From positions 2,009,501 through 2,073,500 of the forward strand of contig NZ_RBXO01000001.1 of the NCBI RefSeq assembly GCF_003634935.1: a stretch of DNA of 64,000 nt. The letters run 5' to 3'. This DNA comes from Saccharothrix australiensis. GTDB taxonomy: Bacteria > Actinomycetota > Actinomycetes > Mycobacteriales > Pseudonocardiaceae. Below are positions 29,086 to 45,786 of this stretch, in pieces (positions within the stretch are counted from its first letter, which is position 1; every line of letters starts with the position of its first letter). Both the position numbers and the translations under genes were made by a program. Below the pieces are notes generated by a model. That model was not told where the DNA came from, did no database searches, and saw only the letters and a list, made by a program, of their open reading frames with translations.

Positions 29086-29112
29086 AGTGAGTTGATGCAG
29101 GAAGAAAAGAGG

Positions 29113-29290
29113 GTGCTCGCCGCTGGGCAGGCCGCCGGGGGAAAGCGAAAAGCGCCGCGTTCTCCCCGTATGGCCTGGTCTGAAGACCAGCGCACTTGGT
29201 CGGGCAGGTCGAGCGGAAAAGCGTGCTCGACCCGCCCGGCCGAACGCGGTTCCCTGCGGGCGGCCATACGGGAGAACGCTCTGCCGGAGG
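29113..29290 (+). repeat. Long-hairpin repeat element, copy A
   Basis: GCTCGCCGCTGGGCAGGCC (29115-29133) leads into a structured segment: outer stem 29157-29175 with 29262-29279, a small hairpin GGTC-TGAA-GACC (29177-29188), and an inner stem 29191-29214 with 29225-29248. Two related copies lie as an inverted pair at 44.46-44.95 kb. It fills the space between two converging genes. Confidence 0.8.
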
Positions 29291-43109: not shown

Positions 43110-44264
43110 CTAGCCCTTGACGCACACCACCTGCTTGAGCCTGGTCACGACCTCGACCAGGTCGCTCTGCCGCGCGATCACGGCGTCCAAGTCCTTGTAC
43201 GCGCCCGGAATCTCGTCCACGACGCCGACGTCCTTGCGGCACTCGACGCCCGCCGTCTGCGCCGCCAGGTCGTCGGCGGTGAACGTCTTGCGCGCCTTGG
43301 TCCGCGACATCCGCCGCCCCGCGCCGTGCGACGCGGACTCGAACGAGTCCGGGTTGCCGAGACCGCGCACGATGTACGAGCCGGTGCCCATCGAACCGGG
43401 GATGATCCCCAACTCGCCCTTCCGCGCGCGGATCGCGCCCTTCCGGGTCACCAGGACGTCCTCCCCGAAGTGGTGCTCCTCCGACACGTAGTTGTGGTGC
43501 GCGCTGATCGGCTCGTCGAACGTCACGTGCGGGAAGTGCGCGCGCAGCACGTCGCCGACCAGGTCGGTCATCGCCGCCCGGTTCCGACGGGCGTACTCCT
43601 GCGCCCAGTACAGGTCGTGCCGGTAGGCGGCCATCTCCGGCGTGCCCGCGAGGAACACCGCGAGGTCCGGGTCGGGCAGCTCGGCGTTGTGCGCCAACTC
43701 CCGCGCGACCGCGATGTGGTGCTGCGCCAACTGGTTGCCGACACCGCGCGACCCGGAGTGCAGCATCACCCAGACCCGGCCGTCGGTGTCCAGGCAGATC
43801 TCCAGGAAGTGGTTGCCGCCGCCGAGCGTGCCGACCTGCCGCACCGCCTTGTCCAGCTTGAGGGACGGCGTCAGCCGGTCGAACGCGTCCCAGAACGCGT
43901 CCCGCGCCACGACCGGCTCCTCGTGCATGGCGAACCCGACCGGCACCGCGGCCTCCAGGGCGGTGCGCAGGGGCAGCAGGCTGGCCGGCAGGTCCTCGGC
44001 GGTGAGCGAGGTCTTCACCGCCGTCATGCCACAACCGATGTCCACACCGACCGCGGCCGGCGACACGGCGTCCTTCAACGCGATGACCGACCCGACCGTC
44101 GCACCCAACCCGTAGTGCACGTCCGGCATGACGGCGACGTGCTTGACGGCCCAGGGCAACGAGGCGATGTTGCGCAACTGCCGGAGAGCCTGCTCCTCGA
44201 CCTCGGCCGGGTCGGCCCAAAGACGGATGTCGACGCGCGCGCCGGAAATCGTGGTAGCAGTCAT
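43110..44264 (-). CDS. rtcB: RtcB RNA ligase
   Basis: A 384-residue GTP- and Mn-dependent ligase that joins 2',3'-cyclic phosphate or 3'-phosphate RNA ends to 5'-OH ends, used in RNA repair. Conserved blocks: MPDVHYGLGATVGSV, GVDIGCGM (metal Cys), GTLGGGNHFLE, HSGSRGVGN, SAHHNYVSEEHHFG and SHGAGRRMSR (guanylylated His). It is the short form common in actinobacteria. No RtcA or RtcR nearby. Upstream of its start lie short tandem repeats and the long-hairpin field. Confidence 0.93.
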   Translation of the reverse strand: MTATTISGARVDIRLWADPAEVEEQALRQLRNIASLPWAVKHVAVMPDVHYGLGATVGSVIALKDAVSPAAVGVDIGCGMTAVKTSLTAEDLPASLLPLRTALEAAVPVGFAMHEEPVVARDAFWDAFDRLTPSLKLDKAVRQVGTLGGGNHFLEICLDTDGRVWVMLHSGSRGVGNQLAQHHIAVARELAHNAELPDPDLAVFLAGTPEMAAYRHDLYWAQEYARRNRAAMTDLVGDVLRAHFPHVTFDEPISAHHNYVSEEHHFGEDVLVTRKGAIRARKGELGIIPGSMGTGSYIVRGLGNPDSFESASHGAGRRMSRTKARKTFTADDLAAQTAGVECRKDVGVVDEIPGAYKDLDAVIARQSDLVEVVTRLKQVVCVKG

Positions 44265-44334
44265 GGCACAAATGCTAGGTCCAGGCCACTCGACACGCGA
44301 TCCGATTTACCCGGCCACACATCCCGGCCAAGCA

Positions 44335-44411
44335 CACACCGAACAGGCACCACCCCTGCTCACGCCGAACAGACCCCGACCCCTGCTCATGCCGGACAGA
44401 CCAAGACCCAC
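44335..44411 (+). repeat. Short tandem repeat upstream of rtcB
   Basis: Units of 26, 27 and about 24 nt at 44335-44360, 44361-44387 and 44388-44411, sharing CAC-x-CCGAACAG and CCCCTGCT. Degenerate; no coding sense. Confidence 0.6.
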
Positions 44412-44460
44412 CGCACCGCGCAGCACAGACCTGGTCCCTGCACCGCGCCGCGCAGACTTC

Positions 44461-44640
44461 TGGTCTCGTGTTCTCCCCGTATGGCCTGCCCGCAGGGCAA
44501 CCACAGTCGGTCAGGGGGCGCAAGCACGCTTCACCGCTTGCGCCCCCTGACCGACTGTGGTGGTCTTTGACAGGCCATGCGGGGAGAACACGACGCCTTT
44601 AAAGCTTTTCCTCCCCGGAGGTCTGCCCAGCGGCGAGCGC
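44461..44640 (-). repeat. Long-hairpin repeat element, copy B (inverted)
   Basis: On the minus strand it reads GCGCTCGCCGCTGGGCAG, then a spacer, then GTGTTCTCCCCGCATGGCCTG and the hairpin. The outer stem is 44467-44488 with 44571-44592 (22 bp, one G-T). The inner stem is 44500-44525 with 44536-44561 (26 bp, perfect) with loop ACGCTTCACC. A mini-hairpin GCCC-GCA-GGGC sits on one side. Opposite in orientation to copies A and C. Confidence 0.85.
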
Positions 44641-44712
44641 TTCTTTAAAGCTTGTGCGGGCGCCTTCCGCGCGGAGGTTCTTCGGTTTGAGCGGGTCAAA
44701 GCTTAAAGAAGG

Positions 44713-44945
44713 GCGCTCGCCGCTGGGCAGGCCACCGAGGATGGGGGCAAAGCTTCTTCGAAGCTTTGCAAGCTTTTCACGCTGCGCGTGAAAAGCTTTG
44801 GCTGCGTGTCATCCCCGTACGACCTGTCAAAGACCACCACAGTCGCCGAAGGGGCGCAAGCGGTGAAGCGTGCTTGCGCCCCTTCGGCGACTGTGGTCGC
44901 CCTGCGGGCAGGTCGTACGGGGATGACACGCAGCCGCCCGAGGTG
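44713..44945 (+). repeat. Long-hairpin repeat element, copy C
   Basis: Begins GCGCTCGCCGCTGGGCAGGCC (19 bases identical to copy A). The outer stem is 44800-44826 with 44909-44935 (27 bp). The inner stem is 44836-44861 with 44872-44897 (26 bp), loop GGTGAAGCGT, the exact complement of the copy B loop. Together copies B and C form a head-to-head pair, and their GCTCGCCGCTGGGCAG ends make a further large palindrome (44601-44653 with 44698-44754). Confidence 0.85.
44748..44798. other. Two A/T-rich perfect hairpins inside copy C
   Basis: CAAAGCTTC (44748-44756) pairs with GAAGCTTTG (44760-44768). A second 13-bp stem, 44770-44782 with 44786-44798, follows with a TGC loop. The AAAAGCTT words make this the most AT-rich spot in the area. 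Both could act as terminators. Confidence 0.7.
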
Positions 44946-44970
44946 TGCCCAGCGGGCGCACCTCGGGCGG
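44934..44970 (-). terminator. Terminator hairpin of the DrrAB operon
   Basis: 12-bp stem 44934-44945 with 44959-44970 plus inner GCCC/GGGC and loop AGC, 12 bp beyond the permease stop on the minus strand. It contains TGCCCAGCGGGCG, echoing the repeat-element end. Confidence 0.7.
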
Positions 44971-44982
44971 TGGTGTCCGGTG

Positions 44983-45786
44983 TCAGCGGCTGACCGCCTT
45001 GCGGTACTGGCGGGTCGCCAAGGGGACGAAGACGACCAGGAAGATCACCACCCAGATCAGGGTGGTGAGCACGGGGTGCTGGAGGGACCACACGTCGGGC
45101 GGCGGGAACGCCGGGTTCGTGTTGCCGAACAGTTCTCGGGCCGCCTGGGTGACCGCCGAGACCGGGTTCCACTCGGCGAACGTCTTCAGCACGCCGGGCA
45201 GCTTGCTCTCCTGCACGAACGTGTTCGCGATGAACGTCAGCGGGAAGATGGCGATGAAGCTGGCGTTGTTGAACACCTCCGGGCTGCGCACCATCAGGCC
45301 CACGATCGCCATGCCCCACGACACGGCGTAGGCGAACAGCAGCAGCAGCGCGAAGCCCGCCAGCGCCTCGAAGAACGACGAGTTGATCCGCCAGCCCACG
45401 ATGAGACCGGTCACCGACATCACCAGGATGACGATGACGTTGTTCGCCAGGTCCGACGTCGTCCGCCCGATGAGCACCGCCGAGCGCGCCATCGGCAGCG
45501 AGCGGAACCGGTCGATGACGCCCTTCTGGATGTCCTCCGCCAGGCCGCTGCCGGTGATGGTCGCGCCGAACACCACGGTCTGCGCGAAGATGCCCGCCAT
45601 CAGGAACTCGCGGTAGTCCATGCCGGGGATCTGGATGGAGCCGCCGAACACGTACGCGAACAGCAGCACGAACATGATCGGCGACAGCGTGGAGAAGACC
45701 AGCAGGTCCGGCACGCGCTTGATCTTGATCAGGTTGCGCTTGGCGACGACCGCGCCGTCACCCAGCGCCTGCACGATGGTGCTCAT
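44983..45786 (-). CDS. ABC-2 type exporter permease, DrrB-like
   Basis: A 267-residue membrane protein with about six helices (from about 28, 60, 110, 145, 175 and 240). The cytoplasmic EDIQKGVIDRFRSLPMARSAVLIGRT is the ABC-2/DrrB signature (GxxxRFRSLP). TFIANTFV and FAEWNPVSAVTQAARELF are the conserved C-terminal half. Starts inside the stop of the ATPase gene (ATGA). DrrAB-type exporters pump antibiotics or lipids; substrate not predictable. Confidence 0.88.
   Translation of the reverse strand: MSTIVQALGDGAVVAKRNLIKIKRVPDLLVFSTLSPIMFVLLFAYVFGGSIQIPGMDYREFLMAGIFAQTVVFGATITGSGLAEDIQKGVIDRFRSLPMARSAVLIGRTTSDLANNVIVILVMSVTGLIVGWRINSSFFEALAGFALLLLFAYAVSWGMAIVGLMVRSPEVFNNASFIAIFPLTFIANTFVQESKLPGVLKTFAEWNPVSAVTQAARELFGNTNPAFPPPDVWSLQHPVLTTLIWVVIFLVVFVPLATRQYRKAVSR

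Follow-up and report, generated by a model that had tools for sequence, protein, structure and literature searches.

A family of extragenic palindromes scattered through Pseudonocardiaceae genomes and its possible role as a two-way 3'-end element

Intrinsic terminators, in which a short hairpin is followed by a T-run, lie beside gene ends and form facing pairs between convergent genes, and dispersed hairpins with compensatory stem changes are known from fungal mitochondria as the double-hairpin elements, which are organellar and smaller. Close counterparts among bacterial repeats are the REP/BIME (REPIN) sequences with their RAYT transposases, as presented in parts of two accounts (PMC2817692, PMC3733652), and these resemble the family described here in being dispersed extragenic palindromes that occur singly or as inverted pairs, in tens to hundreds of copies and with species-specific sequence. 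Two further systems bear on it, each through part of one paper: the single-strand origins of rolling-circle and integrative elements, including sso1 of ICEBs1, which are stem-loop regions (PMC4595007), and the hairpins treated by Monttinen and Loytynoja, in which template switching leaves marks in both arms (PMC8794818).

Here we describe an element at positions 44461-44970 of a 64,000-nucleotide stretch (the window) of the Saccharothrix australiensis genome (G000; 7.86 Mb in 3 contigs). It is a composite of two modules, copies B and C, with their terminator-like halves facing each other, and each module holds, in reading orientation, an outer stem arm (P1), a mini-hairpin (P4), the inner stem (P3), a second mini-hairpin (P2), the returning P1 arm, a linker, a short hairpin with a GGCGA loop and a T-rich run. 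The features, in window coordinates, are as follows.

29105-29281, minus strand: copy A, single and diverged, with palindrome 29158-29281 and terminator-like half 29105-29145 (covariance model match C1:2038655-2038781)
43110-44264, minus strand: RtcB family gene whose start faces the composite (gene caller, Pfam PF01139)
44326-44457, no strand: imperfect CA-rich tandem repeats with units of ~27 bp, flanking B on its outside (repeat families D1, D6), with related repeats at this place in other S. australiensis composites
44466-44593, plus strand (reading orientation): palindrome of B (inverted repeats I3, I6; covariance model match C1:2053966-2054093)
44466-44488/44571-44593: P1 of B, 22/23 pairs, one non-Watson-Crick
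44488-44498 and 44563-44571: mini-hairpins P4 and P2 of B
44500-44525/44536-44561: P3 of B, 26/26 bp, loop 44526-44535
44612-44646, plus strand: terminator-like half of B, CTCCCCGGAGGTCTGCCCA, with GC/GC stem, GGCGA loop at 44632-44636 and T-rich tail
44647-44703, no strand: central linker (composite alignment, read by eye)
44704-44744, minus strand (towards the linker): terminator-like half of C, CATCCTCGGTGGCCTGCCCAGC, with GGCGA loop and T-rich tail, forming inverted pair I5 with the B half
44748-44798, no strand: two additional small hairpins within C, between its halves (inverted repeat I8)
44800-44935, minus strand (reading orientation): palindrome of C (inverted repeats I2, I4; covariance model match C1:2054304-2054431)
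44800-44826/44909-44935: P1 of C, 27/27 bp
44826-44834 and 44899-44909: mini-hairpins P2 and P4 of C
44836-44861/44872-44897: P3 of C, 26/26 bp, loop 44862-44871
44934-44970, no strand: 17-nt inverted repeat (I7; 94%, 3-nt loop) in which C's outer end meets its own reverse copy
44983-45786, minus strand: ABC-2 type permease gene, stop 48 nt from C's P1 (gene caller, Pfam PF01061)

Much of what the sequence-only reading had said of these stems was borne out: the inner ones are indeed 26 bp long and fully paired in B and C, the loops ACGCTTCACC / GGTGAAGCGT are exact complements, and the common end GCGCTCGCCGCTGGGCAG builds a further palindrome (a 29-nt inverted pair, 90%). Its outer-stem lengths of 22-27 bp also stand, with one non-Watson-Crick pair in B, and the perfect pairing it claimed holds for both inner stems and for C's outer stem and breaks at that pair of B and in the imperfect inner stem of copy A. 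Between B and C, 4 of the 26 inner-stem pairs have changed, all of them on both sides as that reading had said. With the covariance model, copies A, B and C scored 79, 137 and 139 bits, and RNA folds of 44461-44655 (plus) and 44700-44940 (minus) gave z = -13.4 and z = -16.5; of the 200 dinucleotide shuffles made of each, 0 folded as well. Energy folding favours a rod over the branched form for B and C, and 3-bp mini-hairpins are frequent in shuffled segments too (counts below), both of which speak against the branched form; it is our own reading of recurrent stems with 3-nt loops. In the alignment of other composites, the right arm of the 44934-44970 inverted repeat is unconserved, and this reverse copy of C's outer end is possibly a template-switch product; C's two additional small hairpins are shorter or missing elsewhere (e.g., L010, L019 and L025). 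A promoter scan at the window element found none.

The earlier reading had recognised no named repeat family, and we likewise obtained no match in the window to Rfam 15 at gathering score, with only sub-threshold matches, mostly to microRNA hairpins, at E up to 5. Membership in REP/BIME with RAYT was considered and rejected because two defining features, the small tagged unit and the RAYT, fail. REP/BIME units measure 20-40 bp with stems of 5-13 bp, whereas stems here are 23-27 and 26 bp in units of ~130-200 nt, and the GTAG or CGTC tag is inconsistent (GCGTC precedes P1 in B and not in C). The terminator-like half, the copies on integrative elements and the lack of a detected RAYT in S. australiensis or S. 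algeriensis (G006) set the family apart further.

Across the family, the P1 arms read CCCCGTAYGGCC ... GGCCRTACGGGG in reading orientation, the commonest P4 forms are GCCC-GCA-GGGC, GCCC-GGA-GGGC and GGGC-GCA-GCCC, P3 loops are for example ACGCTTCACC or ACGCTTTTC, P2 is most often GTC-TTT-GAC and next GCC-TCC-GGC, and a stretch such as CCTTGGCGGCCTGCC lies between linker and GGCGA hairpin. Of the 90 units retrieved by a regular expression that requires CTCGCCG upstream, 88 have a good P3. Several variants were also seen. The central linker is reversed in 4 of 21 S. australiensis composites (L003, L008, L018, L019; alignment by eye), and the P3 loop is flipped in L129 and may be in L248. Outer-side repeats vary by species, being CA-rich and ~27-30 bp in S. 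australiensis and hairpin-like units of ~40 bp in S. algeriensis (L219-L238), while L263-L268 of genome G021 carry 22-bp tandem arrays (CGWGTC...) of ~10-14 units, ~60 bp beyond P1, that differ in order and number; flanks of L194 and L196 hold short purine-rich or GCGC-rich tandem repeats, e.g., GAAGAGCGAA, that often adjoin the terminator-like half. Three loci of one genus (L247, L248, L256) have long hairpins with P3 loop GAAAAGCGT or its reverse and no terminator-like half, and may be a separate hairpin family.

Evaluating copy number revealed that the three-copy element first described was a large undercount. Searching the genome with the DNA of copy C gave 122 matches, and a covariance model built from 24 units gave 130 over both strands, which come down to 65 places and these to 44 sites, namely 21 inverted pairs and 23 single or partial copies (six short). 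The paired starts lie 299-349 bp apart, always minus-then-plus (21/21), and none of the 21 pairs encloses a gene. At E <= 0.001 the model has matches in 22 of the 25 genus genomes, S. australiensis itself included; S. algeriensis and G016 hold at least 139 matches each and G007, G008 and G024 none at this threshold; at E <= 1e-5, matches occur in 32 of 150 Pseudonocardiaceae genomes and 11 of 46 genera. The covariance-model search of genome and relatives, put forward as a check with the sequence-only reading, thus returned many extragenic copies with strongly covarying stems. Because such a model rewards any long hairpin, we sought an independent motif, C[TC]GCC-N-GGCGAG. In 28 of 35 loci it occurs no more than 170 nt away, with the strand and side that were expected, and in 0 of 35 on the wrong strand; it is missing in L211, L244, L246, L247, L248, L254 and L256, with a variant visible by eye in L244. 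A shallow literature search, mostly without subscription papers, found no description of the element family.

As for distribution beyond the Pseudonocardiaceae, an exact 22-nt pattern was run over 394 genomes of the class and matched S. australiensis and G208, G288, G366 and G419; so strict a pattern cannot demonstrate absence elsewhere. We took these four others as chance, since three fall within predicted genes, the fourth (L291) follows one at a distance of 42 nt, and no palindrome was visible. Along the S. australiensis chromosome, where the full site list was used, 35 of 44 sites fall in the dnaA-proximal half (p = 1e-4) and contig C1 has no element in 2.74-5.09 Mb (2.35 Mb opposite dnaA). 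Among the matches listed for other genomes, the same bias appears in G009 (19/23), is weak in S. algeriensis (40/67, KS p = 0.01) and is not significant in G004, G012 and G021.

We then come to the terminator-like half and its placement, which the sequence-only account, for all its detail on the stems, did not include, nor did it have the link to integrative elements described below. Across 64 unique sites the GGCGA loop stays constant while the adjoining stem varies (GC/GC 21, GTCC/GGAC 20, CGTCC/GGACG 11, CGCC/GGCG 4, GCGC/GCGC 4, one or no pair 4), and 25 of the 64 stems have only 0-2 Watson-Crick pairs beside the loop. TTT follows within 12 nt of the stem in 48 sites and TTTT is present in 36, with 16 lacking TTT, and mean T content is 4.4 in 10 nt versus a background of 15%; a generic terminator scan listed neither of the window's two sites. 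None of 55 elements (35 from S. australiensis, 20 from S. algeriensis) overlaps a gene predicted by a codon-usage gene caller. They occupy 21 convergent, 32 tandem and 2 divergent gaps, compared with 23, 84 and 36 among 143 gaps taken as background, which measure 60-2000 bp and come from 11 stretches of Saccharothrix DNA including the window (chi-square p = 1.5e-6). The palindrome-side gene reads into the module in 62 of 90 oriented units (31/42 in S. australiensis composites, 22/34 in S. algeriensis composites, 9/14 in single units) and does not in 28; three single S. algeriensis units (L228, L230, L232) are counted in the 55 and left out of the 90.

What the sequences show directly is how the unit is built, how many copies there are, that the stems covary, that copies sit outside genes and away from divergent promoters, that some sites are common to two species and that some copies lie on integrative elements. 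Our tentative reading of it, drawn from sequence comparison, is a dispersed extragenic palindrome family of Pseudonocardiaceae, REP/BIME-like without being REP, that may act as a two-way 3'-end or terminator element. Each module, read from the end of the neighbouring gene, would present a branched palindrome, a linker, the GGCGA terminator-like hairpin and a T-run and would thereby terminate or protect transcripts, and because the modules of a composite face each other, a transcript arriving from either direction would run first into a long hairpin and next into a terminator. The GGCGA loop with its T-run, the absence of gene overlap, the scarcity of divergent gaps and the 62 units that are read into support this reading. 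So do the 65 places with their uniformly oriented pairs and, as described below, the covariation well beyond shuffles, the six sites in two species, the excess of GU over AC and the template-switch marks. Against it stand the 28 units that are not, the blank generic scan and the 16 sites without TTT; the Watson-Crick purity of the stems and the mini-hairpins with 3-nt loops fit a DNA structure equally, the GU excess described below is partly shared descent, and the energy fold is a rod. At several G021 sites, native terminator-like hairpins persist between gene and unit (by eye), so that a second terminator is not obviously needed there. The hairpin with T-run and the placement after genes are shared with intrinsic terminators, from which the family differs in the long conserved branched palindrome that comes first, the fixed GGCGA loop and its dispersed copies with probable concerted evolution.

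To follow sites between species, we compared the flanking genes of sampled copies in ten genomes, which revealed six sites with a unit in two species and both flanking genes in common (L004/L232, L008/L225, L111/L212, L123/L268, L272/L135, L273/L264), the weakest flank identities being 63% and 72%. Single copies with just one common gene (L114/L271, L115/L132) or with two that both flank the same side (L126/L191, L128/L237) were left out of the six. At the window site itself, S. tamanrassetensis has a composite (L031) and the 16 others of 17 relatives have none; spacers there do not align, so the empty-site comparison across these 17 gave no readable boundary. The ABC ATPase adjoining the composite is 94% identical to its S. 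tamanrassetensis counterpart and 93% to that of S. algeriensis. Although sites are common to species, copies resemble the paralogues of their own genome; L264 and L268, for example, belong to six near-identical G021 copies, though their sites are common with G009 and G000. Copies therefore probably evolve in concert, the alternative being repeated insertion at favoured sites. Losses were also visible in S. australiensis as remnants (L128, L292, L293, L296) in which the terminator-like half survives and the palindrome is gone. In L292 and L296 a P1 arm is joined to the terminator-like half via the repeat GGCCTGCCC, which looks like a deletion of the palindrome between two GGCCTGCCC copies, and L128 and L293 lost theirs in another way.

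These site comparisons bear on a somewhat unlikely alternative, that the family is a non-autonomous, MITE-like mobile element inserted beside gene ends by an unrecognised recombinase or transposase, with the terminator-like features serving for targeting or being incidental. The near-identity of six G021 copies whose flanks are mostly unrelated would fit it, as would copies beside native terminator-like hairpins, the uneven copy numbers within the genus (from 0 in G007, G008 and G024 to at least 139 in S. algeriensis and G016) and the copies on integrative elements and a plasmid. However, no target duplication or clean empty site is readable: the G021 copies have a sharp left edge and no target duplication that we could read, and occupied sites cannot be aligned with those lacking a unit. 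The six sites common to two species and the preference of S. australiensis sites for the dnaA half, with the 2.74-5.09 Mb interval avoided, also speak against it. A search for mobility genes that covered PF01797 and PF00078 detected neither the Y1 transposase nor reverse transcriptase in S. australiensis or S. algeriensis. The RAYT-type Y1 transposase (PF01797) occurs in 5 of 25 genus genomes, one copy being in G023, and is absent as well from G009, G010, G011, G016 and G021. Spread by a reverse transcriptase (retron, group II intron or SINE-like) was a candidate that we rejected, as PF00078 was not detected in S. australiensis, S. algeriensis, G009 or G021; it does occur in 10 of 25 genomes, including the copy-rich G010, G011, G016 and G023.

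How both stem arms change was assessed in an alignment of 24 units, where 97.1% of 1324 cells are paired and 28 of 59 pairs have two-sided changes. Two-sided cells number 150 versus 44.5 in shuffles (0 of 500 as high), and slid structures pair at 34-38% only. The sequence-only reading took such joint change to indicate selection on the fold, which by itself it does not establish, as P3 diversity is near that of the linker and two-sided transversions outnumber transitions. Diversity of P3 is 0.081 for S. australiensis B, 0.212 for its C, and 0.200 and 0.066 for the left and right S. algeriensis units, compared with 0.018-0.052 in the remaining palindrome and 0.147-0.149 in the linker, which here includes the terminator-like halves (L007 was omitted from the S. 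australiensis sets, L130 and L111 also from its C set, and L237 from that of S. algeriensis). Distinct P3 versions number 10 in C and 3 in B across 21 S. australiensis composites, and 14 in the left and 4 in the right unit of 16 S. algeriensis composites. Selection against mispaired intermediates should make P3 lag well behind the linker, which in two of the four sets it does not. P3 mismatches are also far rarer in the 18 loop-side pairs (12/900) than in the 8 basal ones (38/398; p = 2e-11). Differences between versions 1-4 positions apart were two-sided transversions in 101 cases, two-sided transitions in 77 and one-sided in 41, counted over overlapping, non-independent comparisons of 42 types, limited to 26-bp arms with 9- or 10-nt loops. 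Of the six version pairs one position apart three are one-sided, which indicates that intermediates exist. Mismatch and change counts leave out units whose loop starts with AC, as opposite-strand readings or flipped loops. Template switching during replication would thus explain the P3 pattern at least as well as selection does, and the sequence conservation of P1, mini-hairpins, loop and terminator-like half is a better sign of selection than paired change. The hairpins of PMC8794818, in the part of that paper we draw on, likewise change in both arms together and were inferred from rRNA trees, whereas ours are dispersed paralogues with 26-bp stems.

Pair composition touches on whether RNA or DNA is the form that matters. 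P3 in 54 arm pairs has 1338 Watson-Crick pairs, 25 GU, 9 AC and 30 other, and GU exceeds AC in reading orientation in both P3 (25 versus 9) and P1 (41 versus 17), a hint towards RNA of which much is shared descent at few columns. Quite unlikely, in our judgement, is an element that works at the DNA level, as a cruciform or folded single strand bound by protein in replication, supercoiling or nucleoid organisation and independent of transcription. The almost purely Watson-Crick P3 pairs, the origin-proximal bias in S. australiensis and G009, and the mini-hairpins, whose 3-nt loops are often GNA in reading orientation, are what such an element would lead one to expect. The 3-bp mini-hairpins are present in 108/114 and 111/114 units versus 75% and 64% of shuffled segments, a background that weakens this point, and the bias is not significant in G004, G012 and G021. 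A one-sided terminator-like half with T-run and the placement at gene ends argue against it as well.

Linking the family to mobile DNA, we found seven copies on pSAM2-type integrative elements. In two other genera, four genomes have one strong match each, inside or beside such an element (RepSA was confirmed by Pfam at 2 of these 4 loci, and the other two are close DNA relatives), and G108 has a second, diverged copy there. Among genus genomes with few matches, G002, G013 and G022 have their best match on such an element at 6-7 kb from its RepSA gene (the Tra-like protein of L307 received no Pfam name), and in G015, G018 and G019 the best match is not near RepSA. The module is on the integrase-distal side in 7 of 7 RepSA elements, each picked for a nearby match, with the integrase of L258 outside its stretch. 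In most comparisons the conserved block begins within ~6 nt of the P1 base, and in L258/L260 it begins 172 nt further out. The frame of L209 (first plus last 46 nt) is 90-91% identical to chromosomal L201, L203 and L207 of related species. Among the matches listed, the copy nearest to RepSA is at least 28 kb away in S. australiensis and G009, 21 kb away in G004, and 15 kb from a partial RepSA in S. algeriensis. A related module lies on the 16-kb Streptosporangium sp. plasmid NZ_CP109466.1 from another order (L286, 2260-2540), between a ParA operon and small genes. The integrative-element module matched one plasmid record and no phage, the window's own element matched neither plasmids nor phages, and two exact patterns had no match in viral contigs.

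One speculative history joins these observations, and we give it little weight: an origin- or transfer-like module of integrative elements would have escaped to chromosomes, been copied to dozens or even hundreds of gene ends by rolling-circle-type replication or its single-stranded products, and become a host-wide two-way 3'-end set whose palindromes are rewritten by template switching into private perfect stems. That the module simply is the origin or transfer site of RepSA elements (a single-strand origin, or clt-like), with chromosomal copies as relics, we consider very doubtful. The seven integrase-distal copies, block starts ~6 nt from the P1 base in several comparisons, the frames at 90-91% identity, the plasmid copy and the stem-loop nature of known single-strand origins in the consulted part of PMC4595007 do agree with it, and, as with sso1 of ICEBs1, the module is non-coding, has several stem-loops and lies on an element whose replicase is of the rolling-circle type. 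Most family copies, unlike sso1, are chromosomal, and they keep their structure as relics would not; G023 has 95 matches without RepSA, G007, G008 and G024 have RepSA without matches, only 3 of 6 genus genomes with 1-5 matches have the best one near RepSA, and L258/L260 depart from the block boundary. Functionless, neutral palindromes kept perfect solely by template switching are hardly credible, for although P3 changes at about the linker's pace and palindrome-less remnants exist (L128, L292, L293, L296), P1, mini-hairpins, loops and GGCGA vary at 0.018-0.052 versus 0.147 for the linker and recur across genera.

Returning to the two-way 3'-end reading, within-genome likeness would arise by gene conversion, the perfect P3 arms would largely be kept by template switching during replication, selection would hold P1, the mini-hairpins, the loop and the terminator-like half, and integrative elements may have helped to spread the family. 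Because each genome has many paralogous hairpins of ~26 bp with common surroundings and differing stems, stepwise compensation and template switching can be counted directly against each other. Within this group of antibiotic producers, the family also forms a link between the ends of chromosomal genes and integrative conjugative elements, and two-way termination would give it a plain, testable function.
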